A stretch of 64,000 nucleotides of DNA from positions 744,001 through 808,000 of the forward strand of contig NZ_WQCF01000001.1 of assembly GCF_013032455.1 (NCBI RefSeq). Direction: 5' to 3'. The translations under genes and the position numbers were made by a program. How positions within the stretch are numbered: the first letter of the stretch is position 1; the number at the start of each line of letters is the position of its first letter. Positions 16,810-46,815 of the stretch are shown one piece after another. Under the pieces are notes generated by a model, which searched no databases, had not been told where the DNA came from, and saw only the letters and a list, made by a program, of their open reading frames with translations. The DNA comes from Ruegeria atlantica (GTDB lineage: Bacteria; Pseudomonadota; Alphaproteobacteria; Rhodobacterales; Rhodobacteraceae).

Positions 16810-18132
16810 ATGCCGAATCAAACTGGTCGAGCGACGCTGCTTTATCACCTGTATTGCGGTCTGACTGCCGTAGCAGGCCCATTGGTCTGGCGAACAGTTA
16901 GGAAGAAATTGCAGGCAGCTGGTGTCTCCGCGGACCGTCAACGTGAACGCTTGGGCCATGCCAGCCTGCCCCGCCCCGACGGTCAGCTAATCTGGTTTCA
17001 TGCAGCCAGCGTAGGCGAAACGCTATCGGTCATCAGCCTAATCACGCGGCTGGGTAAGCGGCTGCCTCAGGCCGAGTTCCTGATCACCTCCGGCACGCCC
17101 ACCTCTGCCGCCTTGATCGAAAAACGCATGCCACCGCGTGCGCGTCACCAGTACCCGCCGTTGGACACCTCCGGCCCCGTGCGCCGTTTTCTGGATCATT
17201 GGCAGCCAGACGCCGCCATCTTTGTCGAAAGCGAACTCTGGCCTCGTCTGATTGTCGAAGGTGCCGCGCGCGGCATTCCTTTAACCTTACTGAACGCGCG
17301 TCTGTCGGACAGGTCGGTTGAAGGCTGGAAGAAACGACCCAACACGGCGCGGTTCATACTGGATCATTTCCGCCTGTTTCTGACTCAGAATGACAAGACG
17401 GCGCAAAACCTTATCGACATGGGCGCGCGCGCCGAGCGCGTGCAGCCCGGTACGAACCTCAAAGCCATGTCCGACCCTCTGCCGGTGGATCAGATCACGC
17501 TGTCTGATATTCGTGCACAGATCGAAAACCGCCCCATCTGGATCGCCAGCTCAACACACGCGGGCGAAGAGGAAACCGTACTGGCCGCACATACCGAGCT
17601 TCTCAAACGCTGGCCAGACCTGCTGTTGTTGCTGATCCCGCGCCACCCGGAACGCCGGTCCGAGGTCGCAGCCTTGGTAGAACGCGCCGCGCAGGCCGTG
17701 GCCATCCGATCCGATGGTGATAAAATCACTAAAGAAACACAGGTCTACATTGCCGATACGCTGGGTGAAACCGGCACATGGTACGCGCTCTGCCCCATCG
17801 TGTTTCTGGGTGGTTCATTAAAAGAAATCGGCGGCCATAACCCTTTCGAACCCGCACAAGCGGGCGCAGCAGTGATCACCGGCCCCGGTTATTTCAACTT
17901 CGCCGAAACCTTCGCCCCGCTGATCGAAACCGGCGGCGCACTGCAAGTCCAAACTGCCCCCGAACTGGCCAAGGCTGTTGCAACCTGGCTATCAGATCAA
18001 TCCGCTTTGGACACAGCGCGCATGGCGGCGAAATCCTGCGTAAACACCCAAAAATCGGCACTGGATGCAATCGTCGAAACGCTCTGTGCCCAACTCGACC
18101 TGACAGACCCGGATCCAGCTTCATCTGGCTAA
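16810..18132 (+). CDS. waaA: 3-deoxy-D-manno-octulosonic acid (Kdo) transferase
   Basis: 440 residues of the GT30 family. An N-terminal hydrophobic segment (LLYHLYCGLTAVAGPLVW) anchors it to the inner membrane. FHAASVGETLSV, FLITSGTPTSA, HWQPDAAIFVESELWPRL and NARLSDRS are the N-domain motifs, and the C-domain has ASSTHAGEEE, LIPRHPERR, LGGSLKEIGGHNPFEP and ITGPGYFNF. It adds Kdo to lipid IVA during LPS assembly. The last residues (ASSG) and the stop codon are encoded by a copy of a dispersed repeat, so the C-terminal tail differs from what selection on the enzyme alone would give. It is translationally close to moaA, with no functional link. Confidence 0.94.
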   Translation: MPNQTGRATLLYHLYCGLTAVAGPLVWRTVRKKLQAAGVSADRQRERLGHASLPRPDGQLIWFHAASVGETLSVISLITRLGKRLPQAEFLITSGTPTSAALIEKRMPPRARHQYPPLDTSGPVRRFLDHWQPDAAIFVESELWPRLIVEGAARGIPLTLLNARLSDRSVEGWKKRPNTARFILDHFRLFLTQNDKTAQNLIDMGARAERVQPGTNLKAMSDPLPVDQITLSDIRAQIENRPIWIASSTHAGEEETVLAAHTELLKRWPDLLLLLIPRHPERRSEVAALVERAAQAVAIRSDGDKITKETQVYIADTLGETGTWYALCPIVFLGGSLKEIGGHNPFEPAQAGAAVITGPGYFNFAETFAPLIETGGALQVQTAPELAKAVATWLSDQSALDTARMAAKSCVNTQKSALDAIVETLCAQLDLTDPDPASSG

Positions 18133-18139
18133 AAATATC
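18119..18139 (-). repeat. Dispersed 3'-end repeat, copy A
   Basis: Minus-strand sequence GATATTTTTAGCCAGATGAAG, identical over 21 bases to copy C. It lies behind a hairpin downstream of the M20 amidohydrolase gene. On the other strand it encodes the end of WaaA. Confidence 0.8.
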
Positions 18140-18166
18140 TCGGGGGTGCGGGGGCAGAGCCCCCGC
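18131..18166 (-). terminator. Probable terminator of the M20 amidohydrolase gene
   Basis: A perfect 7-bp GC stem (18148-18154 with 18160-18166), loop of 5, lying 8 bases past the gene's stop. On the minus strand it is followed 9 bases later by ATATTTTT, which belongs to the dispersed repeat. Confidence 0.55.
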
Positions 18167-18174
18167 CCTTTCCA

Positions 18175-19338
18175 TCAAGCAGCCGGCATACGCTGTTCGA
18201 CAATCTCAGCCCACCAACTGCACCCAGCCGGAATAGCTTCGTCGTTAAAATTATACTCCGGATGATGCACTGCGGCCGTATCGCCATTACCGACCAGAAT
18301 ATACGCTCCCGGCCGCTCTTCGAGCATAAAGGCGAAATCTTCACCACCCATGATCAAAGGCGCCTCATCACAGTTACCCGAAACAGACCGGGCAACATCG
18401 GCGGCGAAATCGGTCTGCTCATCGCTGTTTACCATCACAGGATAACCCCGGTAGTAAGTCACCTCGGCAGCCCCGCCGAATGTCGCAGCAACACCCTCGC
18501 AGATTTCCTTGATGCGTTTCTCCGCCAGATCCCGCATCGCTGTACTCATCGTGCGGACGGTGCCTTTGATCTGCACCCGTTGCGGGATCACATTGAAGGC
18601 CGTAGACGACGTCTCAAATGACGTGACCGAAACTACGACCTGATCTACCGGATCGGCATTGCGCGACGCGACCGTCTGCAGCGCCAGAACCGCCTGCGCC
18701 GCCATCACGGTCGTATCCACAGTTTCATGCGGTTTGGCAGCGTGGCCGCCCTTCCCTTCGAATGTAACGTCGAACTGGTCCGTGGCCGCAAAAAACGCAC
18801 CGGGACGAATGGCAAAACTGCCTACGGGACGTCCGGGCCAGTTGTGCATGCCGTAGACTTCCTGAATGCCCCAGCGATCCATCATTCCGTCTTCGCACAT
18901 CTCGCGGCCGCCACCGCCGCCCTCTTCGGCGGGCTGAAAAATCACAACAACTGTGCCGTCAAAGTTCCGGGTTTCCGAGAGGTATTTCGCCGCCCCAAGC
19001 AACATCGCCGTATGCCCATCATGACCACAGGCATGCATCGCCCCATCCGTCTTTGAAGCATAGTCCAACCCCGTGGCCTCATGTATCGGCAGAGCATCCA
19101 TATCGGCCCGCAAACCGATCACCTTGCCGCGTGTATCAACCTTGCCCCTGATCACCCCAACAACCCCGGTGCGGCCGATACCGGTGACCACCTCATCGCA
19201 GCCAAACTCCTTCAGCTTCTCGGCAACCAGAGCGCTGGTTCGATGCGTTTCGAACAGGATCTCCGGGTTTTCATGAATGTCACGCCGCCATTCAGTGATT
19301 TCACCCTGCAATTCAGCGAACCGGTTTTTGATCGGCAT
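18175..19338 (-). CDS. M20-family amidohydrolase (N-acyl amino acid / hippurate type)
   Basis: 387 residues. Metal-site motifs are RADMDALP (78-84), HACGHDGHTAM (102-112) and PAEEGGGGG (from 136), with MGGEDFAFM and VHHPEYNFNDE near the C-terminus. This is the M20D layout of hippurate hydrolases, N-acetyl-amino-acid deacetylases and IAA-amino acid hydrolases, with a lid/dimerisation domain in the middle. It hydrolyses N-acyl amino acids; the exact acyl group is not readable. The start is the ATG at 19338 with GGGAGAA 5 bases upstream. An MFS transporter gene precedes it by 58 bases on the same strand and could bring in or export a substrate (inference). Confidence 0.9.
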   Translation of the reverse strand: MPIKNRFAELQGEITEWRRDIHENPEILFETHRTSALVAEKLKEFGCDEVVTGIGRTGVVGVIRGKVDTRGKVIGLRADMDALPIHEATGLDYASKTDGAMHACGHDGHTAMLLGAAKYLSETRNFDGTVVVIFQPAEEGGGGGREMCEDGMMDRWGIQEVYGMHNWPGRPVGSFAIRPGAFFAATDQFDVTFEGKGGHAAKPHETVDTTVMAAQAVLALQTVASRNADPVDQVVVSVTSFETSSTAFNVIPQRVQIKGTVRTMSTAMRDLAEKRIKEICEGVAATFGGAAEVTYYRGYPVMVNSDEQTDFAADVARSVSGNCDEAPLIMGGEDFAFMLEERPGAYILVGNGDTAAVHHPEYNFNDEAIPAGCSWWAEIVEQRMPAA

Positions 19339-19396
19339 TGTTTTCTCCCATTTTATTTTGTTGCTCGGGGTACTGCCCCGATGAGCAATCGTAATT

Positions 19397-20539
19397 TCAA
19401 TTTGCCGACGCAGGCCGCAGCGCTCCAGACAGAAGGACAATCAGTACGGCCAACGGCAACAAAGCTGCAAACGCCAAGCGCAATGTAAGCATTTCGGCCA
19501 GAAACCCAATAAGCGGTGGGCCGATCAGCAACCCTCCATAGCCCAGCGTCGCCACACTGGCGATCGCCTGACCCGGCGGTACATGCGGGTCATTGGCAGC
19601 CCGGCTAAAGGCCAACGGCATGATCACCGCATAGCCGATGCCCATCAAGGCGAAGCCCGCCAGCGCAATCTCGGCCTCCGCAGCAGAGACCACAGCGAGC
19701 ACACCCAATGCGGCGCAAACACCCCCGAAACGCGCAGTGGCAGCGGGTCCGAACCGAGCAATGACCAAACCACCCGCCAGCCGGAAAACCACCATCGCCA
19801 CCGAGAACACAGCATAGCCCAACGCCGCGACGCTTTCTGCTGCCCCGGTCTCGTCGCGCATGAAAATCGCGCTCCAGTCCGCCACAGCCCCCTCTCCCAA
19901 CGCTCCGCAAAGCGCGGTGAAACCAACAAGGATCAGTGCACCCGAAGGCAAGGCAAAGACGGCACCGCCTGCAGATACAGCCTTGCGAGATGTCCAGTGT
20001 ACCCAAGACAGAGCCAACGCCGAGATCACGACAAGCCCTCCTGCCAGCAGGAAATGCTGCATCACCGTCAACCCTGCTTGCACCGCTCCGTACCCGCTGA
20101 ACGCACCCAACCCGGCCCCAAGGCTCCACATCGCGTGAAACGAGGACATGACGGGCTTTTCATAGGCTTGCTCAACTTCCGCCGCCCAGGCGTTCATGGC
20201 AACGTCCATCGAGCCGTGAAAAGCACCGAAAACAAACAGAAAGGCCGCCAAGGACCAAAACCCATCGGCCATGGCCAGCAGGATCAAAGACAACGTGTAA
20301 ACCACAGCAATGACGCGAGTGATCGTTACTGCGCCGAACCAGTCTGTCAGCCGACCTGTAACCGGAAAAGAACACACAGCCCCCGCTGCCATGAACAGCA
20401 AGCCATAACCCAAAGCTTCATGCGATAGGTCCAACCTGTCCCGCACGGCGGGGATACGAGATGCCCAGATGCCAAACAGCGCACCATTCAGGATGAACAT
20501 GGCCGCAACGGCCCGCCAAGCGGCCAACAATCCGATCAA
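19397..20539 (-). CDS. Major facilitator superfamily transporter
   Basis: About 380 residues with roughly twelve hydrophobic helices. GRLTDWFGAVTITR (after helix 2) matches the MFS loop 2-3 signature and GGLVIARFGPAATARFGG is its repeat in the second half. It resembles sugar/drug antiporter-like MFS proteins of the YbjJ type; the solute is unknown. The frame is open from 20653 but that would overlap the upstream gene's coding end and add non-hydrophobic residues. A TTG at 20539 with AAGGA 5 bases upstream begins directly at the first helix (IGLLAAWRAVAAMFILNGAL) and is preferred. No ATG in this frame gives a complete first helix. Confidence 0.8.
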   Translation of the reverse strand: MIGLLAAWRAVAAMFILNGALFGIWASRIPAVRDRLDLSHEALGYGLLFMAAGAVCSFPVTGRLTDWFGAVTITRVIAVVYTLSLILLAMADGFWSLAAFLFVFGAFHGSMDVAMNAWAAEVEQAYEKPVMSSFHAMWSLGAGLGAFSGYGAVQAGLTVMQHFLLAGGLVVISALALSWVHWTSRKAVSAGGAVFALPSGALILVGFTALCGALGEGAVADWSAIFMRDETGAAESVAALGYAVFSVAMVVFRLAGGLVIARFGPAATARFGGVCAALGVLAVVSAAEAEIALAGFALMGIGYAVIMPLAFSRAANDPHVPPGQAIASVATLGYGGLLIGPPLIGFLAEMLTLRLAFAALLPLAVLIVLLSGALRPASAN

Positions 20540-20607
20540 AAGGCATCCTTCGCAACTAGCGCCAAACGCGCCTGTTTTACAGGCTTTCAACGCATTGGCA
20601 AAGACGC

Positions 20608-21885
20608 CTATTCCAACCGCTTGCGTATTCGGCGAATGGCCAGCCAAACACAAAAAACAACCGGAATTGTTACCGCTGAAGTCAGCATTCCTTTGCTTAG
20701 CTGGTCCTCAGCAAACGGGTGCAAAAGATCGCGAACCAGCGAGACTGCATAGTAGCTGATCGCAACGACCGACAGCCCCTCGACGGTGTATTGCAACCGC
20801 AACGCAATATCAGCGCGACGGTCCATGCTCTCCAGCAGTGCTTGGTTTTGGGCGCTCCGCTCGACATCCACCCGCGTTCGCAGCAACTCGCCCGCGCGAA
20901 TGGCGCGGTCAGACAACGCCTGCAAACGGCGCTCCGTCGATTTCACCGTACGAATGGCCGGGTCATAGCGGCGCATCATGAAATCAGCAAAGCTCTGACC
21001 GCCTTCGAAACGCTCTTCCCGCAAGACCTCGATCCGCTGATTTACGATAGCCTCATAAGCGCCTGTTGCTCCGAAGCGGAAAGAACACTGGGCTGAAAGT
21101 GTCTCAAGTTCGGTCGAGATCGACAACAAATCAGGCAGCAACTCGTCGGGATGGGCCGTATTATCGGTCATTTGACCCATCAGCTCTGTCAGTTTCGCAT
21201 CCAGCTCGCCAATCCTGGGGGTCAGTTTCTTGACGCGAGCAAAGCCTAGCATCGACATGGCTTTGTAGGTCTCGATTTCACAAAGACGTTGGATAATACG
21301 TCCCGTTCTGCGCCGTCCGGCACCTTTGGAAACGAAAAGCGCAAAACGCATATGCCCCGCCGGGTCGATGCGAAAATCGCTGGCGCAAACCGCAGCATCG
21401 TCTAACACACGAGCTGCTGCCAGGCTTTCAGGCTCGAACCAATCAAGCAGCGAAGCTTTGACTGCATCATCCTCTTGCCGCTCAACCACCCGGATCATGG
21501 CCGAGGTGATACGCTGACCTTCGCTGGCCTTCAGCCAATCAGGGGGGAACACCTCAAAATCCGCCGGGTTGAAGGGGCGGTCGCTCACGTTCTTCGTAAT
21601 TGCTGTAAAGGTCACGAATTCGGTGTGCTGTTCCCATTTCAGCCAATGACGCCCAATCTGGCCAGCATAGTGTGTGGCCTGAGGTTGCGGATGTTGCGCC
21701 CCGTGACGATCCAACAGATTTATCAAATGCGCCAGATCCTTGTCCCGATCCCGAGCTACAGCGGCCACCGGCTTTTTGATCGCCAAAAAGGTTACAGTGC
21801 AAGGCGTATCAGCCACAGGAAATGGGCGCGCGTGCAGTTCATTGGCCAGAGAATAGCGCAAAGGATGATCGTCGATGGTCGTCAT
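20608..21885 (-). CDS. DUF3422 family membrane-anchored protein
   Basis: 425 residues. The N-terminal part (HPLRYSLANELHARPF, then THYAGQIGRHWLKWEQHTEF and FPPDWL) matches the DUF3422 family. The middle is a long helical, coiled-coil-like region (e.g. RRYDPAIRTVKSTERRLQAL), and two transmembrane helices close the protein (VVAISYYAVSLVRDLL and TSAVTIPVVFCVWLAI) with a basic tail. Function is unknown; the architecture suggests a large cytoplasmic helical body tethered at its C-terminus. The ATG at 21885 has GGAG 6 bases upstream and a good promoter further up, so this gene can start its own transcript leading into the MFS and M20 genes. Confidence 0.85.
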   Translation of the reverse strand: MTTIDDHPLRYSLANELHARPFPVADTPCTVTFLAIKKPVAAVARDRDKDLAHLINLLDRHGAQHPQPQATHYAGQIGRHWLKWEQHTEFVTFTAITKNVSDRPFNPADFEVFPPDWLKASEGQRITSAMIRVVERQEDDAVKASLLDWFEPESLAAARVLDDAAVCASDFRIDPAGHMRFALFVSKGAGRRRTGRIIQRLCEIETYKAMSMLGFARVKKLTPRIGELDAKLTELMGQMTDNTAHPDELLPDLLSISTELETLSAQCSFRFGATGAYEAIVNQRIEVLREERFEGGQSFADFMMRRYDPAIRTVKSTERRLQALSDRAIRAGELLRTRVDVERSAQNQALLESMDRRADIALRLQYTVEGLSVVAISYYAVSLVRDLLHPFAEDQLSKGMLTSAVTIPVVFCVWLAIRRIRKRLE

Positions 21886-21909
21886 AAGGGGCTCCGGTTC
21901 GTCCACCGC

Positions 21910-21937
21910 ACTATACGGCACACCAAGAATACATCAA
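21910..21937 (-). promoter_or_regulatory. Candidate sigma-70 promoter of the DUF3422 gene
   Basis: Minus strand TTGATG (21937-21932), 16-base spacer, TATAGT (21915-21910), in an AT-rich stretch. It begins 25 bases before the ATG. Confidence 0.55.
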
Positions 21938-21992
21938 TTATCTTTTTATTTCATGCACTTACAAGGATACAACGGTATACATTCCAGCTATC

Positions 21993-22349
21993 CTATTGAT
22001 TTGGTTGCCACAGCTCGACGGGATTTCCTTCGGGGTCGTGAATGCGGGCGAATTTTCCAACCTCACTGTCCCATTCGGCACGAGTTTCAACCGGAATCCC
22101 CGCTGCTTCTAACTGAAAGATCATGGCCTCCAGATCATCGACACGAAAGTTGATCATCCATTGCCGATTAGTCGGCCCAAAATACGTCGTGTCCTGCGCG
22201 AAAGGGGCAAACACAGTGTACCCTTCGCGCTGCTTCCACGGAACAGACCCGCAGGGATCAACTCCAAGATTTTCTTCATACCAAGCGCTCAAGGCTTTAG
22301 GATCATTGGCCCGAAAGAACACGCCGCCTATGCCGTTCACCTTCTGCAT
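21993..22349 (-). CDS. Glyoxalase/bleomycin-resistance (VOC) fold protein
   Basis: 118 residues with the paired beta-alpha-beta-beta-beta modules of the VOC fold: GIGGVFFRANDPKALSAWYE at the start, MINFRVDDLEAMIFQLEAAG in the second module, and the closing FARIHDPEGNPVELWQP with a typical metal-ligand glutamate. Members range from metal lyases to antibiotic-binding proteins; no substrate can be assigned. The ATG at 22349 is chosen because the family N-terminus begins there and GGGGGAC precedes it; a longer open frame would run into a dispersed repeat. Confidence 0.85.
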   Translation of the reverse strand: MQKVNGIGGVFFRANDPKALSAWYEENLGVDPCGSVPWKQREGYTVFAPFAQDTTYFGPTNRQWMINFRVDDLEAMIFQLEAAGIPVETRAEWDSEVGKFARIHDPEGNPVELWQPNQ

Positions 22350-22396
22350 TGCCGTCCCCCAGTTGTACTCAGGTTGAACATAACACACCCCGCCCG

Positions 22397-22417
22397 CTTC
22401 ATCTGGCCGCAAATATC
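22397..22417 (-). repeat. Dispersed 3'-end repeat, copy B
   Basis: Minus-strand GATATTTGCGGCCAGATGAAG, three changes from copies A and C. It lies downstream of pntB and of a small hairpin with 7-bp arms (22441-22447 with 22457-22463). Confidence 0.65.
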
Positions 22418-22489
22418 TTGGGGCGACGCCTTTTGATGCACCATTGGTTCAAGCATCCAATGGCGGCGAGCAAAGCCCCCTACCAAAAC

Positions 22490-22522
22490 GAAAAAAGAAA
22501 AGGGCGCCCGCAGGCGCCCTTT
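22490..22522 (-). terminator. Intrinsic terminator of pntAB
   Basis: A perfect 10-bp stem (22499-22508 with 22513-22522), loop CGCA, followed on the minus strand by a pyrimidine run with TTTTTT. It starts 22 bases past the pntB stop. Confidence 0.9.
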
Positions 22523-22544
22523 GCAATTTGATAAACCTTAACGA

Positions 22545-23993
22545 TCAGTCGATCATCGGCAGAAGCTTGTCCAGCGACTCCTTGGCGTCGCCATAGAACA
22601 TGCGGGTGTTCTCTTTGAAGAACAGCGGGTTTTCGATGCCCGAGTATCCAGTGCCCTGTCCACGCTTGGACACGAACACCTGCTTGGACTTCCAGCATTC
22701 CAGAACCGGCATCCCGGCGATGGGGCTGTTGGGGTCTTCCTGCGCTGCAGGGTTCACGATGTCGTTCGAACCGATGACGATGGCCACATCCGTCTCAGGG
22801 AAGTCCTCGTTGATTTCGTCCATTTCCAGAACGATATCGTAAGGAACCTTCGCCTCAGCCAGCAGCACGTTCATGTGGCCCGGCAGACGACCGGCAACGG
22901 GGTGGATCGCGAAACGCACCTCTTTGCCCTTGGCGCGCAGCTTGCGGACCAGTTCGGAAACCGACTGCTGTGCCTGCGCAACGGCCATACCGTAACCCGG
23001 GATGATGATAATGCTGTCAGCGTCGTTCAGAGCTGCGGCAACACCATCGGCGTCGATGGCCACCTGCTCACCTTCGACCTCCATCTGCGGCCCCGAAGTG
23101 CCGCCAAAGCCACCCAGGATCACGCTGACAAAGTGGCGGTTCATTGCTTTACACATGATGTAGGACAGGATCGCACCCGACGAGCCCACCAGCGCTCCGA
23201 CCACGATCAGCAGATCGTTGCCAAGGCTGAAGCCGATCGCAGCAGCCGCCCAGCCCGAGTAGCTGTTCAGCATCGACACAACCACCGGCATGTCGGCGCC
23301 GCCGATGCCCATGATCAGGTGATAGCCGATGAACAGAGCAGCCAGCGTCATCAGGATCAGCGGCAGCAGACCACCGGATGCGGTGTACCAGACCAGGCAG
23401 ATCAGCGAGAGACCCGCAGCAGCTGCGTTCAGCGCATGGCCACCGGGCAGCTTGGTCGCCGCCGAAGTCACCTTGCCTGCCAGCTTGCCATAGGCCACGA
23501 CCGAACCGGTAAAGGTGATCGCACCGATGAAGATGCCCAGGAACAATTCCACATGCAGGATTGCCAGTTCCGCCGAGGATTTCTTGGCGATCAGTGCAGC
23601 GAAGGTTCCAAAACCTTCCTTGGCCAGTTTCGCATCAGCAGAAGCAAGCGCCTGCGCCACGTTTCCGATCTCGAAATGCGCATTGAAGCCGACGAAAACA
23701 GCCGCCAGACCAACCAACGAGTGCATTGCGGCCACCAGCTGCGGCATCTCGGTCATCTGGACACGCTGCGCCACATACTGACCGATCAGACCACCGCCGA
23801 TGATCAGCAGCAGCGACAGTAGCCAATAACCCGAACCAGGGCCAACCAGCGTGGCAAAAACCGCCAGCGCCATACCGACAATGCCGTACCAGACCGCGCG
23901 CTTAGCGCTTTCCTGGTTCGACAGACCGCCGAGCGAAAGGATGAAGAGAACAGCCGCAACAACATAGGCGGCAGTAGTGAAGCCAAATTCCAT
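22545..23993 (-). CDS. pntB: NAD(P) transhydrogenase subunit beta
   Basis: 482 residues. The first ~270 are about nine transmembrane helices forming part of the proton channel; the C-terminal domain III binds NADP(H), with [14 protein letters not shown] (nucleotide loop), [32 protein letters not shown] and [19 protein letters not shown]. With PntA it couples hydride transfer from NADH to NADP+ to inward proton flow, supplying NADPH. It follows pntA by 13 bases and is closed by a strong terminator. Start ATG at 23993 with GGAGG a few bases upstream. Confidence 0.97.
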
Positions 23994-24006
23994 CTACCCG
24001 GCCTCC

Positions 24007-25578: not shown

Positions 25579-25708
25579 TGGCAGATCCCCCTAATTTTCA
25601 CTCAGACTGAGCGGGTGGTCGGTATTGTTTGTTAAGCGAACGTGTATCCTGCGCAACATTATTTCGCAAGCGCAGCATTTGCTGCGTTGCATCATGGTCA
25701 CGGTTCCT

Positions 25709-26158
25709 TCATATCCAGCGCCGCGTCCGGCGTTCATAGCGGGCGAAATCAGCGCGAAAAGCGCGACGCAAACGATCCTCTTCCGGCAGGATGAAACGGC
25801 GCTCAAGCACCCACACAAACATGGGTACGAGCACCAGAGACAGGACCGCATCGAACCGTAGAACCAAACCTGCAAGGATTAGGACGTCACCAAGATAGAT
25901 TGGATTGCGGCTACGCTTATATATGCCCGATTGCACCATGGCAGTTGGCGTTTCATGCGGAATTACTGTTGTTTTGTGGCGGCGAAACTCAACAATAGCC
26001 AATACCGCAACCAGGATACCAGCGCCGATCAGAAGTCCGCTGAGCAGATCGGTCAGCCCGCTATCCAGCGACAACCCTAGCGGAAAATGACGCGCCTGCA
26101 GCCAAGCCAGCAATGCAAATCCAATCAGCCATACGGGCGGTATGTCGATCCAGCGCAT
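25709..26158 (-). CDS. Isoprenylcysteine/phospholipid methyltransferase-like membrane protein
   Basis: 149 residues. Several hydrophobic helices (VWLIGFALLAWLQ, LLSGLLIGAGILVAVLAIVEF) precede the hallmark C-terminal motif SGIYKRSRNPIYLGDVLILAG followed by the FVWVLERRFILPEE segment. This is the ICMT/PEMT-like pattern in which the NP-Y-G region binds S-adenosylmethionine within the membrane. The substrate is unknown; bacterial members methylate lipids, thiols or isoprenoid-like groups. ATG at 26158 with GGAGAG 5 bases upstream; it is divergent from kynU with a 172-base gap. Confidence 0.85.
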   Translation of the reverse strand: MRWIDIPPVWLIGFALLAWLQARHFPLGLSLDSGLTDLLSGLLIGAGILVAVLAIVEFRRHKTTVIPHETPTAMVQSGIYKRSRNPIYLGDVLILAGLVLRFDAVLSLVLVPMFVWVLERRFILPEEDRLRRAFRADFARYERRTRRWI

Positions 26159-26330
26159 GCGCACTCTCCGCAAGTGGCGCCACGCAAAGCACGTGTCGCT
26201 TCTGACCGATGTCCTACCGCTTTCAGACCCAAATGGCAAAGCTTCGGTTGTCGCATCAATGGACAGGCATAAATGGATCGGATAGGCCGAATCAAAGCAC
26301 TGACCCAGATCAAAAGATTGTGAGCCCCCG

Positions 26331-28095: not shown

Positions 28096-28106
28096 ACCTG
28101 AACTCG

Positions 28107-37634: not shown

Positions 37635-37759
37635 AACAATCAACACGGGTGTGGTCCATTGCGCCACATCCGCGCTCAAATTCTTATGCAAAGCTTGAGT
37701 TGGAGGATCGTTTCAGTAAAATTTAAGACCACCTGTTTGTTACGGTTTCGAGTGTTACC

Positions 37760-39019: not shown

Positions 39020-39089
39020 TTCCCCCTTGCCCCTTTGGCGCGGCACGCCTAATACGCAGGCTTAAACTTCTGCGGAAATGAGGCGCGCC

Positions 39090-40601
39090 ATGCTCGACCT
39101 GACATACGAAATGCCCAAACCCAAGACCATTGCCGGGGCCAAGCACGACTGGGAACTGGTGATCGGGATGGAGGTGCATGCTCAGGTCTCATCCAATGCC
39201 AAGCTGTTCTCGGGCGCGTCGACCCAATTCGGGGCCGAACCGAACTCGAACGTGGCTTTCGTGGACGCGGCGATGCCCGGCATGTTGCCCGTAATTAACG
39301 AGTTTTGCGTTGAGCAGGCCGTACGCACTGGTCTGGGCCTGAAAGCGGATATCAACCTGAAATCGGCGTTTGACCGCAAGAATTACTTCTACCCCGACCT
39401 GCCGCAAGGCTATCAGATCTCCCAGCTGTACCACCCCATCGTGGGTGAAGGCGAAGTGCTGGTCGAGATGGGTGACGGCACCGCGCGTATGGTTCGCATC
39501 GAACGCATTCACATGGAACAGGACGCGGGCAAATCGATTCACGACATGGACCCGCATATGTCTTTCGTGGACCTGAACCGGACCGGCGTTTGCCTGATGG
39601 AGATCGTCAGCCGCCCCGATATTCGTGGCCCGGAAGAGGCCGCCGCTTATATCGCCAAGCTACGCCAGATCATGCGGTATCTGGGCACCTGTGATGGCAA
39701 CATGCAGAACGGCAACCTGCGCGCGGACGTGAACGTCTCGATCTGCCTGCCGGGCGCATATGAGAAGTATCAGGATACACAGGATTTCTCGCATCTGGGT
39801 ACACGTTGTGAGATCAAAAATATGAACTCGATGCGCTTTATCCAGCAAGCGATCGAGGTCGAGGCCCGTCGTCAGATCGCCATCGTCGAGGCTGGTGGCA
39901 AGATCGATCAGGAAACCCGCCTGTATGACCCGGACAAAGGCGAGACCCGCTCGATGCGGTCCAAGGAAGAAGCACATGATTATCGCTATTTCCCCGACCC
40001 CGACCTGCTGCCGCTGGAGATCGAGCAGGCGTGGGTTGACGACATCGCAAACAACCTGCCTGAGTTGCCGGACGACAAGAAAGCCCGCTTTATCAGCGAG
40101 TTTGGCCTGACCGACTATGACGCTTCGGTACTGACTGCCGAGGTGGAATCTGCCGCATATTTCGAAGAGGTCGCACAGGGCCGCAACGGCAAACTGGCCG
40201 CGAACTGGGTGATCAACGAACTGTTCGGTCGCCTGAAGAAAGAAGATCATGACATCACCGAGTCGCCGGTTTCTCCGGCACAGTTGGGTGGGATCATTGA
40301 CTTGATTTCATCCGATGCAATCTCGGGCAAGATCGCCAAGGATCTGTTCGAGATCGTCTATACCGAAGGCGGCGACCCGGCGCAGATCGTCGAAGAGCGT
40401 GGCATGAAACAGGTGACCGATACCGGAGCCATCGAATCCGCTCTGGATGAGATTATCGCCGCCAATCCAGCGCAGGTTGAAAAGGCCAAGGTGAACCCGA
40501 AACTGGCGGGCTGGTTTGTAGGGCAAGTAATGAAAGCCACCGGCGGCAAGGCCAACCCAAAGGCCGTGAACGAGCTGGTGAGCAAAAAGCTGGGTTCTTA
40601 A
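39090..40601 (+). CDS. gatB: Aspartyl/glutamyl-tRNA amidotransferase subunit B
   Basis: 503 residues. [24 protein letters not shown] begins the GatB/E catalytic domain; [60 protein letters not shown] and [16 protein letters not shown] follow. The C-terminal YqeY-like helical tail ([20 protein letters not shown]) is complete. It transamidates mischarged Glu-tRNA(Gln)/Asp-tRNA(Asn) with GatA and GatC, which are not adjacent. The ATG at 39090 is preferred because GAGG lies 6 bases upstream; that GAGG overlaps an in-frame ATG at 39078, the same arrangement seen at the iorA start. A strong terminator follows. Confidence 0.96.
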
Positions 40602-40625
40602 GTCGATCAGAATTTACGTCATGGG

Positions 40626-40657
40626 CGGCAGGGGTTGCGAAAACCTCTGCCGTTTTT
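40626..40657 (+). terminator. Intrinsic terminator of gatB
   Basis: An 11-bp stem with one G-U pair (40626-40636 with 40642-40652), loop GCGAA, then TTTTT. It is 24 bases past the gatB stop. Confidence 0.92.
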
Positions 40658-40773
40658 GTCTGTGAATTGCATTTCAACGGCAGTTCCGGCGGAATTCGGC
40701 ATGTTTGTGATGATGACTTTCCCAAAATCCTCAACATGTTAGATTGTCAGGTATCGGCAACCGGGAATATCTG

Positions 40774-41184
40774 ATGCAGCGCTACGAATACAAAGTGATC
40801 CCCGCCCCTCAAAAAGGCACCAAAGCCAAGGCGGCGAAAAACGCCGAGGATCGGTTTGCGGCTTCGATTGAGCACGTGCTGAACCAGATGGGAGAAGACG
40901 GATGGGAATATCAGCGCGCAGAATTACTGCCTAGCGAAGAACGCTCGGGCCTGACCAGTTCGACGGTGAACTGGCGCAATGTTCTGGTCTTCCGGCGGAA
41001 AGTTGAAGTTACGTTTGCGACTACCCGAAGTCCATCAGAAACGCCCGAGGGCGTGGCTCTGGCGCAACCGGTGCCGGGCCCAGAGTCTGTTGTCGCCCCG
41101 GCTCCTATTTCGCAAGCGGTCAAAGAACCGCCACTGTCGCTGAAAGGTTCCGAGGCCAATATAGACCCTGAGGAAAAACCCTAA
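40774..41184 (+). CDS. DUF4177-type small protein
   Basis: 136 residues. The N-terminal part (MQRYEYKVIPAP, then GEDGWEYQRAELLPSEER and NVLVFRRKVE) has the compact beta-alpha-beta pattern of DUF4177 proteins, ending in the aromatic/basic VFRRK strand. The C-terminal 50 residues are low-complexity, rich in Pro, Ala, Ser and Glu, and probably disordered. No signal peptide. The ATG at 40774 has a weak GGGA upstream; a TTG at 40744 in the same frame is possible but less likely. Function unknown. Convergent with the GDCCVxC gene. Confidence 0.78.
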   Translation: MQRYEYKVIPAPQKGTKAKAAKNAEDRFAASIEHVLNQMGEDGWEYQRAELLPSEERSGLTSSTVNWRNVLVFRRKVEVTFATTRSPSETPEGVALAQPVPGPESVVAPAPISQAVKEPPLSLKGSEANIDPEEKP

Positions 41185-41206
41185 AGCCCAAGCAGGCCAC
41201 AAAGAT

Positions 41207-41431
41207 TCACGTGCAGCAGGATTTACCTTCTTGAATCGGGGGGCATGGCACAGTGCCAAAAGAACAATAAACGCAACAATCGCCTTCCAATGGTTTCAGA
41301 ACCGCATGGCACGACTTGCATTCGTAAAACCACTGGCACGCATCCGTTGGCATCACTTCAATCTCAACATGACCACACAATGGGCAGGTCAAAGCGGATT
41401 CTAATGTGATGGCATGTTTTTCTTCTGCCAT
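41207..41431 (-). CDS. GDCCVxC-domain small metal-binding protein
   Basis: 74 residues with nine cysteines. Ligand-like pairs are CPLCGH (N-terminal) and ECKSCH (middle), followed by the signature GDCCVYCSFGTVPCPPIQ and a CC near the end. This belongs to the small GDCCVxC family, in which some homologues place selenocysteine in the motif; here all positions are ordinary cysteine codons. Two zinc-ribbon-like knuckles are likely. Function unknown. It lies 44 bases downstream of bolA on the same strand, suggesting co-expression with an iron-sulfur/redox-related factor. Confidence 0.87.
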   Translation of the reverse strand: MAEEKHAITLESALTCPLCGHVEIEVMPTDACQWFYECKSCHAVLKPLEGDCCVYCSFGTVPCPPIQEGKSCCT

Positions 41432-41475
41432 TGCTTCCCTCTAACCCTATATTCCGCCTGTATATTTCAAGGATG

Positions 41476-41730
41476 TCAGCCGCCGATATCCAGCGCCAGG
41501 GCGTGTATTCGCGGAACGATGTCGCCCAGCGCCTTGTGCACTGCGCGGTGGCGAGCTACGCGAGATTGGCCCTCGAACGCGCTGGCACGAATGAAAACGT
41601 TGAAATGGCTCTCACCACCATCTTGGTATCCTGCGTGACCGCGATGGCTCTCGCTATCGTCAACCACCTTCAACTCGCGCGGATTGAATGCCGCATCAAG
41701 GGCTTTATGGATTTCATCGGCCACGGTCAT
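41476..41730 (-). CDS. bolA: BolA-family protein
   Basis: 84 residues. The BolA fold is recognisable in LKVVDDSESHRGHAGYQDGG (with the conserved His loop), ESHFNVFIRASAFEGQSRVA and RHRAVHKALGDIV. BolA proteins partner monothiol glutaredoxins in iron-sulfur handling; the loop His is a cluster ligand in those complexes. It is divergent from the J-domain gene across 108 bases, a neighbourhood (bolA, J-protein, cobS, cobT) seen in related bacteria. Confidence 0.93.
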   Translation of the reverse strand: MTVADEIHKALDAAFNPRELKVVDDSESHRGHAGYQDGGESHFNVFIRASAFEGQSRVARHRAVHKALGDIVPRIHALALDIGG

Positions 41731-41838
41731 TTTTTCGCTCAGCGGTAAAAAATTTACCGCTCCCCCTCTTCTACTTTCGGCTACTTAGACTAAACTGCTG
41801 CCTCCGAGTCGAAAAGATACCTTCGAGAGGTTCAGAGC

Positions 41839-42462
41839 ATGGTGAAGTCAGACCCCTTCGGATTCGATATGTCCGTTTCCAGCGCCAAGAAAAAGAACCC
41901 GCGCGGGCGCCGGGGCATGTCGGGTGCGTCGGAAACCTCGGTGCGAATCTGTGACCACGAGGGCTGTGAAGAGGCCGGAAAGTTCCGTGCGCCCAAAGCA
42001 CCCGACGTTCTGGATGATTTTTTCTGGTTCTGCCAGCAGCACGTGCGCGAATATAACCAGAAATGGAATTTCTTCGACGGCACGACCGAAGCAGAGTTGA
42101 ATGCGCAGCGATCCAAAGACAAAGTCTGGGAACGTGAGACAAAGCCCATGGGTGATCCCGAGGCACGTGCCTGGGCCCGTTTGGGCATCGAAGATCCGCA
42201 TCAGGTATTGGGCGAGAACGCAACCAAAAACCCCGGCCGCGCCAATTCAGGTGGTCGCCGCCTGCCCCCGACCGAACGCCGCGCAATCGAAATTCTCGAA
42301 GCTCAGGACAGCTGGTCCAAGGCCGAGGTGCGTAAGGCCTACAAAAAACTGATCAAGGTGTTGCACCCGGACATGAACGGGGGCGACCGCTCGCAGGAAG
42401 AACAGTTACAAGAGGTTGTCTGGGCCTGGGATCAGATCAAGGATAGCCGGAACTTCAAATAA
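41839..42462 (+). CDS. J-domain protein with N-terminal Cys/His motif
   Basis: 207 residues. The J-domain is at the C-terminus, unlike DnaJ: SWSKAEVRKAYKKLIKVLHP contains the HPD triad (HPDMNGGDR) and ends in EEQLQEVVWAWDQIKD. The N-terminal half has CDHEGCEE and WFCQQHVREYNQKWNFFDG, giving a C-x4-C ... C-x2-H set that could bind zinc. It would recruit DnaK/Hsp70 to a particular client. In relatives it neighbours cobS and cobT, so a link to assembly of the cobaltochelatase is a reasonable inference. ATG at 41839 with GAGAGG upstream. Confidence 0.88.
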   Translation: MVKSDPFGFDMSVSSAKKKNPRGRRGMSGASETSVRICDHEGCEEAGKFRAPKAPDVLDDFFWFCQQHVREYNQKWNFFDGTTEAELNAQRSKDKVWERETKPMGDPEARAWARLGIEDPHQVLGENATKNPGRANSGGRRLPPTERRAIEILEAQDSWSKAEVRKAYKKLIKVLHPDMNGGDRSQEEQLQEVVWAWDQIKDSRNFK

Positions 42463-42470
42463 GCTTCGCT

Positions 42471-43358
42471 TTAATGTTGAAGCATGTCCTGCAGCGCTTG
42501 CGCTTCGGGACGTTTCAAGCAGCGCAAACTGGTTTGCGGCATTGGTGCGCCACTGCTCAACTCGGGAAAAAGCGCGTGCAGTTCGTCAAGGTATTCCCGG
42601 CCAAACGATCTTACCGCTCTATCGCCAAGATACAGGCTTTCGCTCTGCAAGCCATGTGATGTCAGAATGGCGTGCCGTTCACAGGCAATGTGATAGTACG
42701 TAACGGCTTCGTCCTTCTGCAATTGGCGGATCGTATCATTATTGACCAAGTGAATCGCGGCAGAAAAAACCATCGGTTCGCCAAACAGCAACTCGGCACG
42801 CCAACCTTCAATAACGATCCGATGTTGCGGGGACACGTACAGATCACGATCCGGCAAGCCTTTGCCCAGCGCGTCACGCGTGATCAATACGGGCCGGAAT
42901 TTTGACTGGAGGCGTAAAGTCTGAGCACTGAGCGTTCGGTTACCAATCCAGATTATCGGCAGTGTCTGGCCGTTGGACACACAAACCCTGTCGCCAACCT
43001 CCAATTCTTCGACTGGTCGCGGGCCTGTGTCAGTTTCGATCAAAGTACCAGCGACAAAACACGGTGGGTTATCCGGGTTGAGGTCACCCTCGGTAATCTG
43101 CCAATTCCCGGTGCTCATCGAACTAGTGGGATCTTCTGTATTCCAAGCGTAAGTCTGCCCGCCTACCCGTATGAAATCCCCGGATTCGCTTGACCCCGAC
43201 CTGAAACCTTGCCCAAGGAATTCATATTCCTCAAACGTCAGCCCCCCATCAAACGAGATCATGTCACCATCAATAATGGCTGGCTGTGTCTCACCCTGAA
43301 CAACCAAGTCGCCCGGGCCAGTTACATTTACAGTGTGGAGAAGGACATCAAACGCCAT
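42471..43358 (-). CDS. Hint-domain (Hedgehog/intein-type) protein
   Basis: 295 residues. An N-terminal beta-rich part (about 1-105) precedes a Hint domain starting at PCFVAGTLIETDTGPRPVEE, LEVGDRVCV and continuing through LYVSPQHRIVIEGWRAELLF, HLVNNDTIRQL and YYHIACERHAILTSHGLQSE. The conserved Cys and the HRI/H-A-I histidines of self-processing domains are present. Such proteins are common in Rhodobacterales, sometimes attached to secreted or surface proteins; no classical signal peptide is visible. The ATG at 43358 is weakly supported. It sits inverted between the J-protein gene and cobS, in a region that is otherwise collinear in relatives. Autoproteolysis is inferred from family only. Confidence 0.85.
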   Translation of the reverse strand: MAFDVLLHTVNVTGPGDLVVQGETQPAIIDGDMISFDGGLTFEEYEFLGQGFRSGSSESGDFIRVGGQTYAWNTEDPTSSMSTGNWQITEGDLNPDNPPCFVAGTLIETDTGPRPVEELEVGDRVCVSNGQTLPIIWIGNRTLSAQTLRLQSKFRPVLITRDALGKGLPDRDLYVSPQHRIVIEGWRAELLFGEPMVFSAAIHLVNNDTIRQLQKDEAVTYYHIACERHAILTSHGLQSESLYLGDRAVRSFGREYLDELHALFPELSSGAPMPQTSLRCLKRPEAQALQDMLQH

Positions 43359-43785
43359 CACACGCACCGTGGATAATTGCGGCAATCAAAATAGGCATAC
43401 CATATTGTAGGGATGGCGCGAGCATACTCTTGCAGTAAGTTCTATTCTTCATCGCCCTCTCGCACAAACTCACTCACACAGAACCAATAGGGATAGTTTA
43501 CGAGAACTCAGGTGAACCCAAAATTAATATTTTTACTATCGCATCCATGAACTCAAAAAAGTCGGCATCGCTGTCACCCAATGCCAGCGACTGGCTGTTT
43601 CGCTACAGCCTGATGCAGGTCCGCGATGCAATTCTCGACTGACCCGCACACGATAAGGCCAGTTTCAAAGAAAGACTTGCCGACTTCATAACCTGCGCGG
43701 CTTTCCCTTGCCCTTGCCCGCAATATGTTGCACCACACACAGGTTCAAACCCGGCAATGCGGGCCATAGGATAAGGACAAGGCGA
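43359..43785. other. 427-base intergenic region between the Hint gene and cobS
   Basis: No gene is recognisable. It contains an AT-rich patch around 43510-43560 (GC clearly below the surrounding coding DNA), a 6-bp hairpin at 43593-43610 and a CCCTTGCCCTTGCCC run at 43705-43719. It must hold the promoters of both divergent genes, but no convincing -35/-10 pair was found. Confidence 0.5.
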
Positions 43786-44772
43786 ATGGCTGACGGATCG
43801 ATCGATATCAACGCAAAACCCACCGAGGAAATCTCGGTCCGTGACGTGTTCGGCATTGATACCAACATGGCTGTCAAAGGCTTCGCCGAACGCAGTGACC
43901 GGGTTCCGGCCATTGACCCGACCTACAAGTTCGACCCGGAAACAACATTGGCTATTCTGGCTGGTTTTTCTCATAACCGCCGCGTGATGATTCAAGGCTA
44001 CCACGGCACTGGTAAGTCTACACATATCGAACAGGTTGCCGCCCGTCTGAACTGGCCCGCCGTACGTGTGAACCTGGACAGCCATATCAGCCGGATCGAC
44101 CTTATCGGTAAGGACGCAATCAAGTTGCGCGATGGCAAGCAAGTCACCGAGTTCCACGAAGGCATCCTGCCATGGGCGCTGCGCAACCCCGTTGCCATCG
44201 TGTTCGATGAATATGACGCGGGCCGCGCAGACGTGATGTTCGTGATCCAGCGCGTGCTTGAGCATGACGGGAAACTGACTCTGCTGGACCAGAATGAAAT
44301 CATCACGCCGAACCCAAATTTCCGCCTGTTTGCCACCGCAAACACAGTCGGCCTGGGCGACACCACCGGCCTGTATCACGGTACGCAGCAAATCAACCAG
44401 GCGCAGATGGACCGCTGGTCTCTGGTCTCAACGCTGAACTACCTTAGCCACGATGCTGAGACGATGATCGTCCTGTCCAAGGCGCCGCATTACAACACCG
44501 CAGAAGGCCGCAAGAAAGTCAGCCAGATGGTAACAGTCGCCGATCTGACCCGGACTGCCTTTATGAACGGTGACCTTTCGACCGTGATGAGCCCCCGGAC
44601 CGTGATCAACTGGGCCCAGAATGCCGAAATTTTCCGCGACGTGGGCTATGCCTTCCGCCTGTCCTTCTTGAATAAATGTGACGAACTGGAGCGCCAGACT
44701 GTCGCCGAGTTCTATCAGCGCTGCTTTGACGAAGAACTGCCGGAAAGCGCGGCGAGCGTGAGCTTGGGGTAA
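43786..44772 (+). CDS. cobS: Cobaltochelatase subunit CobS
   Basis: 328 residues of the AAA+ MoxR-like branch. Walker A is [13 protein letters not shown] (71-83), Walker [11 protein letters not shown], sensor region [34 protein letters not shown] and [15 protein letters not shown] are family landmarks. With CobT it forms the ATPase ring that drives CobN to insert cobalt into hydrogenobyrinic acid diamide in aerobic B12 synthesis. The ATG at 43786 has AAGGACAAGG upstream; the frame is open further back without homologous sequence. cobN is not in the window. Confidence 0.95.
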
Positions 44773-44780
44773 CCCGCAGA

Positions 44781-44803
44781 ATTGCGCCCGTGCCGGGCGC
44801 AAT
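44781..44803 (+). terminator. Hairpin downstream of cobS
   Basis: A perfect 10-bp stem (44781-44790 with 44794-44803) and a 3-base loop, 8 bases past the cobS stop. The T-run ATATTTTT comes 13 bases later inside repeat copy C. It may act as an attenuator between cobS and cobT. Confidence 0.55.
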
Positions 44804-44836
44804 GCCTCCGGCGGGGATATTTTTAGCCAGATGAAG
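44804..44836 (+). repeat. Dispersed 3'-end repeat, copy C
   Basis: GCCTCCGGCGGG followed by GATATTTTTAGCCAGATGAAG, directly after the cobS hairpin and 58 bases before cobT. The core is identical to copy A; the GC block is shared with copy D. Confidence 0.8.
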
Positions 44837-44894
44837 GCGGATCCGGTTTCACGGTTGTTGAAATTTGGGGCCGCGATGTGAAAGGCTTGGGGAC

Positions 44895-46772
44895 ATGGCA
44901 CAGAAGAACGACAACCCTGCTGATCCGTTTAAGAAGGCTCTGGCTGAGGCCACAAAAGTTATGGCCGACGACCCGGATCTGTCGGTTAGCTATACCGTCG
45001 ACCCTTCGGGCTTGTCTGGCGAGTCGATGCGTTTGCCTCAGGTCTCACGCCGGATGACCCGTGAAGAAGTGCTGCTGGCACGTGGAACAGCGGACGCACT
45101 GGCATTGCAGCGCAAGTACCACGACGATGCGACGCATGCGCGCTATATCCCGCCGGGCGATATGGCACGAGATCTATATGAAGCGATGGAAGTTGCCCGT
45201 TGTGAGGCGATGGGCGCGCGGGATATGCCCGGCACCGCCTCAAATATCGACGTCAAGATCGGGCACGAAGCGATCCGGCGCGGCTATGATCAGTGTAAGC
45301 AGCCCGCAGATGCACCGCTTGCGGTTGCTGCCGGTTATCTGATCCGCCACTTGGCAACAGGGCGCGATCTGCCACCTGCTGCTGATAATATAATGAATCT
45401 GTGGCGCGGCTTCATTGAGGAACAGGCTGGCGGGACGCTGGAAAACCTTGATGAGATCCTCTCGGATCAGGCTGAGTTTGCCAAGTTCGCACGCCAGGTG
45501 ATCAAGGATCTGGGCTATGGCGACCAGCTGGGCGAAGACCCGGATGAGCTGGACCAGGAACAGGAAGATCAGGCCGAGGACGACGCTGAGGAACAGCCGG
45601 ACCCCGACAGCACCGGCCAGGATGATCAGGATGAACAGGACGCTGACGCCACGCCTGAGCAGACACAGGAAGAGCAACAGGACCAGTCTCAGGCGCAGGT
45701 CTCAATGGATGAGATGGCCGAGGACGAGATGGGCGATGAGGCAGAGATGCCTGACGGGGAAGCTCCTCTGGAACCCCCTGCCCCACAGCCTGCATCTGAG
45801 GCCGACCCGGACTATAAGGTCTATCTGGACACGCATGACGAAGAGATTGCGGCCGAGGATCTGGCCGAGCCTGCCGAGCTGGAGCGCCTTCGCGCCTATC
45901 TGGACCAGCAATTGGAGCCATTGAAGGGCGCTGTGAGCCGTCTGGCCAACAAGTTGCAGCGTCGTTTGCAGGCACAACAGAACCGCAGTTGGGAGTTCGA
46001 CCGCGAAGAAGGTATTCTGGATGCGGGCCGTCTGGCGCGTGTGGTTGCCAACCCGACCACTCCGCTGAGCTTCAAGGTCGAGAAAGACACCGAGTTCCGC
46101 GATACCGTGGTGACATTGCTGCTGGACAATTCCGGTTCGATGCGCGGGCGACCGATTTCCATTGCGGCCATCTGTGCGGATGTTCTGGCGCGGACGCTGG
46201 AGCGCTGCAATGTGAAGGTCGAGATTCTGGGCTTTACCACCCGTGCGTGGAAAGGCGGACTGGCGCGTGAGGCGTGGCTGAATGATGGCCGCCCGCAGCA
46301 GCCGGGACGTTTGAACGATCTACGCCACATCATCTACAAAGGCGCTGATGCGCCGTGGCGACGGGCGCGGCCAAACCTGGGTCTGATGATGAAAGAGGGC
46401 CTGCTGAAGGAAAACATCGACGGTGAGGCGCTTGAATGGGCGCATCGCCGGATGCTGGCGCGGCGCGAGCAGCGCAAAATCCTGATGGTGATTTCCGATG
46501 GCGCCCCGGTCGATGATTCAACTCTGAGCGTTAACCCGGCCAATTATCTGGAAAAACATCTGCGTGATGTGATCGCGATGGTGGAAAAGCGCAAGATGGT
46601 GGAGTTGCTGGCGATTGGTATCGGCCATGACGTGACGCGCTATTACGACCGTGCGGTAACGATCACGGATGTGGAACAACTGGCAGGCGCCATGACCGAG
46701 CAGCTGGCGGCGCTGTTTGACAGCGATCCACGTGCGCGGGCCCGCGTGATGGGCATGAAAAAGGCCAGCTAA
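44895..46772 (+). CDS. cobT: Cobaltochelatase subunit CobT
   Basis: 625 residues. The N-terminal helical part ([20 protein letters not shown]) leads to a long acidic, low-complexity linker near 215-330, rich in Asp, Glu and Gln. A C-terminal VWA domain follows with MIDAS motif [11 protein letters not shown] (DNSGS at 411-415) and [13 protein letters not shown]. CobT is the adaptor that pairs with the CobS AAA+ ring, as VWA/MoxR partners do. The ATG at 44895 is close behind GGGGAC; a TTG at 44865 is in frame but unlikely. The stop codon lies in the loop of a downstream hairpin. Confidence 0.95.
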
Positions 46773-46782
46773 GGCTGGCCTT
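46761..46782 (+). terminator. Hairpin overlapping the cobT stop codon
   Basis: A perfect 9-bp stem (46761-46769 with 46774-46782). The left arm encodes the last three residues (K-A-S) and the TAA lies in the 4-base loop. It is followed at once by repeat copy D. Confidence 0.5.
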
Positions 46783-46815
46783 GCCTCCGGCGGGAGTATT
46801 TTCAAAAAGATGAAG
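46783..46815 (+). repeat. Dispersed 3'-end repeat, copy D (diverged)
   Basis: GCCTCCGGCGGG then AGTATTTTCAAAAAGATGAAG. The GC block is identical to copy C; the core has drifted in the middle but keeps the T-run and AGATGAAG end. Confidence 0.65.

Follow-up and report, generated by a model that had tools for sequence, protein, structure and literature searches.

Why does a 21-base sequence recur just downstream of hairpins at the 3' ends of several genes, identical to the letter at two places 26 kb apart? The question was raised by a stretch of 64,000 nucleotides of the Ruegeria atlantica genome (contig NZ_WQCF01000001.1, positions 744,001 to 808,000; referred to as the window herein), in which a first-pass annotation had described four copies of such a repeat, A to D, and had suggested selection or transposition of a cassette. 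We found that these copies belong to a genome-wide family that adjoins gene 3' ends, keeps its places between species and carries a tail that differs between genera. The reading that we favour, with a probability of about 0.42, is that of a vertically inherited, selected gene-3'-end element in which a terminator-like hairpin is joined to a lineage-specific tail that would be read by a putative factor.

As the annotation had stated, copies A and C are identical across the 21 bases, a match for which 100 dinucleotide shuffles of the window gave no equivalent. Copy B differs from them at three bases. Copy D agrees with the core that had been proposed for all four copies at only 15/21 bases and represents a second subtype, with AAAAGATGAAG in place of GCCAGATGAAG. 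A relaxed core recovers all four copies in the window, where 0.06 would be expected. The copies and the window genes beside them are as follows, NNR standing for two free bases and a purine.

18111..18166, minus strand: copy A, subtype I, 3' of the M20 gene (minus strand). Hairpin blocks: R GGGGG 18160-18164; loop; Y1 CCCCC 18150-18154; 3-nt linker; Y2 CCCCC 18142-18146. Core: head GAGA; TATTT 18133-18137; NNR; GCC; AGATGAAG 18119-18126; GGATCC 18111-18116.
22397..22419, minus strand: copy B, subtype I (core AAGATATTTGCGGCCAGATGAAG), 3' of pntB at a distance of about 130 nt.
44781..44844, plus strand: copy C, subtype I, between cobS and cobT. Hairpin ATTGCGCCC..GGGCGCAAT 44781-44803; mini-hairpin CTCCGGCGGG 44806-44815. 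Core: TATTT 44818-44822; GCC; AGATGAAG 44829-44836; GGATCC 44839-44844.
46760..46815, plus strand: copy D, subtype II, after cobT and about 30 nt ahead of the next start. Hairpin AAGGCCAGC..GCTGGCCTT 46760-46781; CTCCGGCGGGAG; TATTT 46797-46801; AAA; AGATGAAG 46808-46815.
18175-19440: M20 peptidase gene.
22545-23993: PntB gene.
43786-44772: CobS gene.
44895-46772: CobT gene.

These four neighbours are the ones named by the annotation; genes for a KDO-transferase-like protein and an M24 peptidase also adjoin the copies.

A search for TATTT-N6-AGATGAAG (that is, TATTTNNNNNNAGATGAAG) found 58 exact copies in the genome to which the window belongs (G000, 4.24 Mb), 30 forward and 28 reverse, and none of the reversed control. 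When one mismatch was allowed and G was additionally required three bases ahead of TATTT, 70 rows were obtained, 12 of them new core variants beside the 58 exact copies; C1:37460 may be a chance match. There are 38 occurrences of the word GCCAGATGAAG (none in the reversed control), and 36 of them lie within elements or evident variants: 34 stand after TATTTNNN, another (the facing partner of L004) has TACTT, and L327 comes after a variant element. The other two lie inside predicted genes.

The copies fall into two coupled forms, GGGA-TATTT-NNR-GCC-AGATGAAG (subtype I) and GGAG-TATTT-NNR-AAA-AGATGAAG (subtype II). Heads with GA or GG pair with GCC in 34 copies, and heads with AG pair with AAA or, once, TAA in the other 24. 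The congener G027 carries 63 copies, 38 of subtype I (one with the head GT) and 25 of subtype II, and no head-tail hybrid exists among the 121 copies of the two genomes. Head and trinucleotide, inspected by eye for base pairing with one another, gave no consistent pairing. A purine occupies the third free position in 56/58 copies of the window's genome and 62/63 of G027, and T is enriched at the first two free positions (39/58 and 35/58), so that TATTT is extended by T in 39 copies. GGATC follows within 12 nt of the tail in 23/34 copies of subtype I and in 1/24 of subtype II, compared with 6/406 control windows.

Gene context was taken from a home-made open reading frame caller, by which 55 of the 58 copies could be classed (one lies inside a gene and two have a missing neighbour). 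Twenty-three are in tandem and co-directional with their neighbours, 17 lie between convergent genes, 13 are in tandem against the direction of the genes and two are between divergent genes. A gene 3' end adjoins 53 of the 55, as the annotation had claimed from its four copies, with the qualification that copy A also overlaps the TAA stop (18130-18132) of the convergent gene 16909-18132; a co-directional gene lies upstream of 40 (the 23 tandem and 17 convergent copies). Of the 55 copies, 2 fall in divergent gaps, a type that accounts for 23% of all gaps of 50 nt or longer when the window and five congeners are counted (P = 9e-5). With 58 copies so distributed, the repeat is neither randomly placed nor too rare for a family. 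The constant orientation to transcription seen in the window fails genome-wide: 23 copies in tandem gaps point with the genes and 13 against them, a bias that is not significant (P = 0.13). In many of the convergent and reversed copies, about a dozen bases or fewer separate the tail from the stop codon of the opposite-strand gene. Tails face each other at a distance of 150 nt or less at nine places, and seven of these pairs are spaced 11-13 nt apart: six are of subtype I and have GGATCC or AGATCC at their centre, and the seventh is of subtype II. One of the 58 copies, with a counterpart in G027 (L079/L311), lies in a coding frame and is probably a chance match kept by the protein.

The places of the repeat are shared widely within the genus. 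The CobT of the window has 97% identity to the CobT of a Ruegeria sp. CobT orthologs were found in 54/54 genus genomes, and among 30 congener loci read, copy C was seen at 15, those with the cobS end upstream, nearly unchanged while the bases that follow drift; copy D was intact, variant, decayed or absent. We also compared 80-kb stretches around cobT in five congeners, four of which (G299, G249, G316 and G027) are largely syntenic with the window and carry copies A, B and C at the same places; G321 matches the window around cobT only and has copy C there. Copy D is present in exact form in G249 and with a single mismatch in G027; it was not found in the stretches of G299, G316 and G321. No exact copy beyond A to D was seen in the five stretches. 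The M20 gene (18175-19440), which has MFS and DUF3422 genes as neighbours in the window, matches more than one neighbouring stretch in G299, G249, G316 and G027, where it looks like a tandem gene family.

Comparison of the 58 copies with the 63 of G027 matched 38 by both flanks, four by one flank and 16 by none, and left 21 G027 copies without a match. After two weak one-flank matches (58 and 40 nt) were dropped, 40 orthologous pairs remained, including the one in a coding frame (L079), so that 40/58 copies are intact at the same place in G027. The flanks of these pairs have a median identity of 83% (quartiles 79 and 85). TATTT and AGATGAAG were required in both partners, and their identity was therefore not counted; elsewhere, the free bases are identical at 79/120 positions, the head at 139/160 and the bases after the tail at 139/200, and the trinucleotide is the same in 36/40 pairs. 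In the remaining four pairs (L002/L323, L063/L274, L068/L280 and L076/L322), GCC and AAA are exchanged jointly with the head, with the same or a similar hairpin. Under drift at the identity seen for the free bases (0.66), the chance that thirteen fixed bases would stay intact is estimated at 0.66^13, or about 0.5%. As 40/58 copies are intact at shared places whose flanks have a median identity of 83%, we consider the repeat to be old and selected rather than actively jumping. The selection proposed by the annotation is thus supported by the shared places, by a head and trinucleotide that are kept while free bases drift, and by the scarcity of one-mismatch copies.

Beyond the genus, TATTTN6AGATGAAG is present in 120/292 genomes of the order (reversed control, 2 in all), with 23 to 67 copies in each of 14 congeners drawn other than G033. 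The hairpin-side pattern CTCCGGCGGGNNTATTT occurs in 115/149 genomes of the family and 63/72 genera (control, 2 in all), with 163 copies in G085. In a class-wide draw of 289 genomes, four of them in the family, the other 285 gave two single matches. The element is thus nearly confined to Rhodobacteraceae. A tail pattern gave 34 rows including double listings (19/80 loci). A query with copy C against plasmids (E limit 10) returned 43 records, some of them weak matches, mostly from Leisingera, Paracoccus and Ruegeria; Tritonibacter, Phaeobacter and others were also matched, and two Proteus records are probably chance.

A search that left the tail unspecified covered 12 genomes; in three of them the copies were listed and the tails read by eye. 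Every listed copy in G085 bears the tail AACAAAAGAA. In G025 there are two coupled forms, GGGA..GCCAGAAGAAG and GGCA..TTCAAAAGAAAG, plus a few variants, and in G139 the tails are AAAAGAAGAAG or AAGAGAAGAAG. Tails are therefore constant or nearly so within each of these genomes (in two forms in G025) and differ between the genera. Several other genera have tails of their own after cobT, two as facing pairs (G103 and G035), and many of the 40 genera read have no tail there. In 320 kb of G085, 28/29 AACAAAAGAA words follow TATTT, and 16 of these 28 elements lie between convergent genes. Since the signature differs between genera in the manner of a dialect, it is suggested that something in the cell reads it.

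The annotation had held that the repeat always follows a hairpin. This is true of subtype I, where all 34 copies have a perfect GC-rich stem of 4 bp or more upstream, and partly true of subtype II, where 16/24 do; a stem of at least 5 bp is found in 33/34 and 11/24, respectively. The hairpin of copy B itself is degraded in the window and intact in G299, G249, G316 and G027. The hairpin is often set apart from the T tract, and in one class, which we call the paperclip class, at least about 10 nt separate its base from TATTT. Near-identical hairpin cassettes recur at unrelated loci, for example GCGAGGGGCCAGCCCCTCGCGCTCCCC. At several orthologous places (L075/L300, L001/L283 and L018/L325) the upstream hairpin is quite different and the head, TATTT and tail are kept, which suggests that hairpin and core evolve independently of each other, as modules. 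A known RNA family was rejected, as Rfam covariance models gave no match at gathering score in the window and 11 loci.

The favoured gene-3'-end element would have as its parts a strong RNA hairpin in most copies, the head GGGA or GGAG with TATTT, two free bases and a purine, and the lineage tail, which in Ruegeria is GCC- or AAA-AGATGAAG, often with GGATC added in subtype I. The hairpin and A/U tract would stop or trim transcripts at the gene end, and head and tail together would form the sequence-specific site of a putative trans-acting factor, which once bound could block read-through or mark the gene boundary. The family, its placement, its conservation, its head-tail coupling and its dialects are observed; termination, the factor itself and recognition of DNA rather than RNA are what we infer here. 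The factor would most likely be DNA-bound, because the element stands in either orientation to genes and its facing pairs are mostly 11-13 nt apart. Two subtypes in one genome may correspond to two factors or two binding modes, and co-evolution of factor and site is proposed as the source of the tail differences between genera.

Several observations weigh against this reading. Thirteen copies point opposite to both neighbouring genes; the tails of two facing pairs are separated by 110 and 136 nt, and those of one pair in Marinibacterium by about 22 nt. Eight of the 24 subtype II copies have no GC-rich stem of 4 bp, four of which still contain the small CTCCGGC/CTTCGGC motif. Folding energies of the 55 nt upstream are modestly below those of shuffles (median z -1.23 for subtype I and -0.57 for subtype II), and the A/U tract is short, TATTT being followed by AAG in most listed G085 copies, as read by eye. 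Sixteen of the 58 copies have no intact counterpart in G027, and the congener G033 has no exact copy of either pattern; G033 may have lost or re-dialected the family (cobT region L330).

A rival reading is that of plain intrinsic terminators, whose downstream bases might be kept since they lie in the downstream DNA channel of RNA polymerase and tune release, with no special factor involved. Gene-end placement and hairpins agree with this, as does the enrichment of T at the first two free positions. One conserved polymerase, however, should not need exact words that are specific to a genus, coupling of head and tail without hybrids is not expected, and the 13 copies oriented against both genes do not fit. 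We consider this explanation unlikely.

The hairpins of the paperclip class raise a further possibility. Copies of this class are built as R(n)-loop-Y1(n)-3 nt-Y2(n)-head-TATTT, and the lengths of the R, Y1 and Y2 blocks agree exactly in 43/58 scorable copies, out of the 121 in two genomes. Where the blocks are mixed, Y2 mirrors Y1 and is never its direct repeat, as in GAGGGG/CCCCTC/CTCCCC, GAGGGA/TCCCTC/CTCCCT, GAGAGG/CCTCTC/CTCTCC and GGAGGGGG/CCCCCTCC/CCTCCCCC. In a first scan with a linker of at most 50 nt, 14 of 42 non-palindromic arms were mirrored, none was direct and 28 fitted neither pattern; L055, with its distant hairpin, is probably a chance case among the 14. With no demand made on Y2, 52/66 mixed-arm cases in the DNA examined were mirrored and none direct; 31 of the 66 came from loci of a search for the arm GAGGR, and excluding them 23/35 were mirrored. 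The 14 non-mirrored cases break down into ten that belong to the CTCCGGCGGG class, three that are chance-like and one, copy B in G249, that was read off-register. The GAGGR search, in which Y2 was asked only to be pyrimidine, matched 131/394 family genomes (reversed control, 0), and of 30 loci fetched from 30 genomes 29 were mirrored, none direct and one a chance match. A few GAGGR rows have a Y2 without the T, for example in G441, G420 and G393 (by eye). One genome of 3.8 Mb, G413, has 78 matches to the mixed-arm paperclip pattern, far above any other of the 394.

In 64 cases elsewhere with an all-pyrimidine Y2, the A in R faces a T in Y2 at 39/41 positions in parallel register and at 2/41 in antiparallel register, or 19/21 and 2/21 after removal of duplicates. 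At the orthologous place L065/L277 all three strands change together in parallel register (G to A, C to T, C to T), at L003/L284 and L017/L297 block length changes in all three, and copy B in G249 has the three-strand change GGAGG/CCTCC/CCTCC. L070/L296 breaks the mirror rule, L078/L310 changes one block only, and shared ancestry of cassettes reduces the independence of the mirrored cases. As read from the sequences, R-loop-Y1-linker-Y2 has the arrangement and register that a pyrimidine third strand would take: Y2, as the mirror of Y1, runs parallel to the purine strand as in a Y.R-Y triplex, in the subclass of hairpins with a 3-nt linker only. Partial antiparallel R:Y2 pairing of 4-5 bp is possible in several arms (GGGG:CCCC, AGGGA:TCCCT, GAGAG:CTCTC); the full antiparallel form, with Y2 a direct repeat of Y1, was not seen in the mirror scans. 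Runs of C+.G-C triplets are disfavoured at neutral pH. A triplex in this subclass is a possibility, not a result. In RNA, the purine arm would pair with Y1 and Y2 would lie parallel in the groove; alternatively, a mirror-image purine form might occur on the other DNA strand. That the subclass folds as a paperclip triple helix and, with a dialect tail read by a co-evolving putative factor, forms a combined gene-end signal is a proposal that we hold to be improbable as a whole.

Less probable still is a REP-like dispersed palindromic repeat, once spread by mobile machinery and now domesticated. The recurrent near-identical cassettes such as GCGAGGGGCCAGCCCCTCGCGCTCCCC, the replacement of subtype as a unit at 4/40 places, the facing pairs, and the unmatched copies (16 in the window's genome and 21 in G027) all favour it, but the places are of long standing and for the most part shared, and few one-mismatch copies exist. 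The transposase RAYT (Y1_Tnp, PF01797) was found in 13/54 genus genomes and not in the window's own genome or G027, which hold 58 and 63 copies. Present REP/RAYT mobility is therefore rejected on this absence and on the places shared between congeners. Of the cassette transposition suggested by the annotation, active jumping finds no support, no extra exact copies having been seen in the 80-kb stretches of the five congeners and no RAYT having been found in these two genomes, and a cassette-like remainder stands in the four unit switches and the 16 copies without a G027 counterpart.

We give a similarly low rating to a 3'-untranslated region (3'-UTR) module acting at the RNA level, in which transcription would continue past the tail and AGAUGAAG would be read by a nuclease, a small RNA or an RNA-binding protein to set stability. 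Placement at gene ends, and hairpins with compensatory changes in orthologs, are in keeping with such a module, but the tail lies beyond the expected 3' end, the mRNA adjoining the 13 copies that oppose both neighbours would carry the tail's complement, and there is the lack of an Rfam match noted above for the window and 11 loci. An analogue of the DNA uptake signals (DUS/USS), with words reused at terminators, is highly improbable and was rejected on copy number and placement: lineage dialects and terminator-associated inverted pairs are described for Neisseriaceae (PMC3630211), but there are tens of copies here rather than thousands, only 2/38 GCCAGATGAAG words lie inside genes, and the G085 tail words in the 320-kb sample follow TATTT with one exception.

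Should the favoured reading hold, that of a selected gene-3'-end element with a factor-read tail, the gene ends of a large bacterial family would be marked by a lineage-specific word for which a reader must exist, and this hidden gene-boundary system could be found directly by pull-down. It would also supply a natural set of dialects for swaps in culturable genera (Ruegeria, Leisingera, Paracoccus, Tritonibacter, Phaeobacter and others). The mirror rule would constitute comparative evidence for a triple-strand structure at bacterial gene ends. In this family of sea and soil bacteria, dozens of gene ends share one small DNA module. No title or abstract opening among the matches listed in the open-access literature, subscription papers not being covered, describes the element, and a literature search with sequence strings gave no matching title on Rhodobacteraceae. 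The closest published parallels among what was seen are the terminator-associated dialects of uptake sequences (PMC3630211; PMC13020248), whose copy number and placement are different.

The element resembles several known systems in part. REP, BIME and REPIN sequences are dispersed intergenic palindromic repeats, often at 3' ends and sometimes in inverted pairs, that occur with RAYT transposases; the present element differs in the Y1 transposase that was not found in its own genome or G027, in places mostly conserved between two species and in a strictly conserved core. Y.R-Y triplexes and H-DNA mirror repeats share with the paperclip subclass the order R-loop-Y1-linker-Y2 and a Y2 that mirrors Y1, but that subclass would form only 4-8 triplets, mostly C+.G-C. 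The SAM-V riboswitch reportedly contains a major-groove triplex (PMC6061858). The DUS/USS of Neisseriaceae and Pasteurellaceae (PMC3630211; PMC13020248) have in common with the element their short-word dialects, inverted pairs and association with terminators, whereas the element occurs in tens of copies, has a word nearly confined to it and an asymmetric bipartite core, and bears its hairpin on one side. With intrinsic terminators it shares, at most copies, a GC-rich hairpin at the gene 3' end with a short T-rich tract somewhere after it; unlike them, it stands in both orientations to genes, at some copies without a clear hairpin, and carries a fixed, lineage-specific word 6 nt past TATTT.

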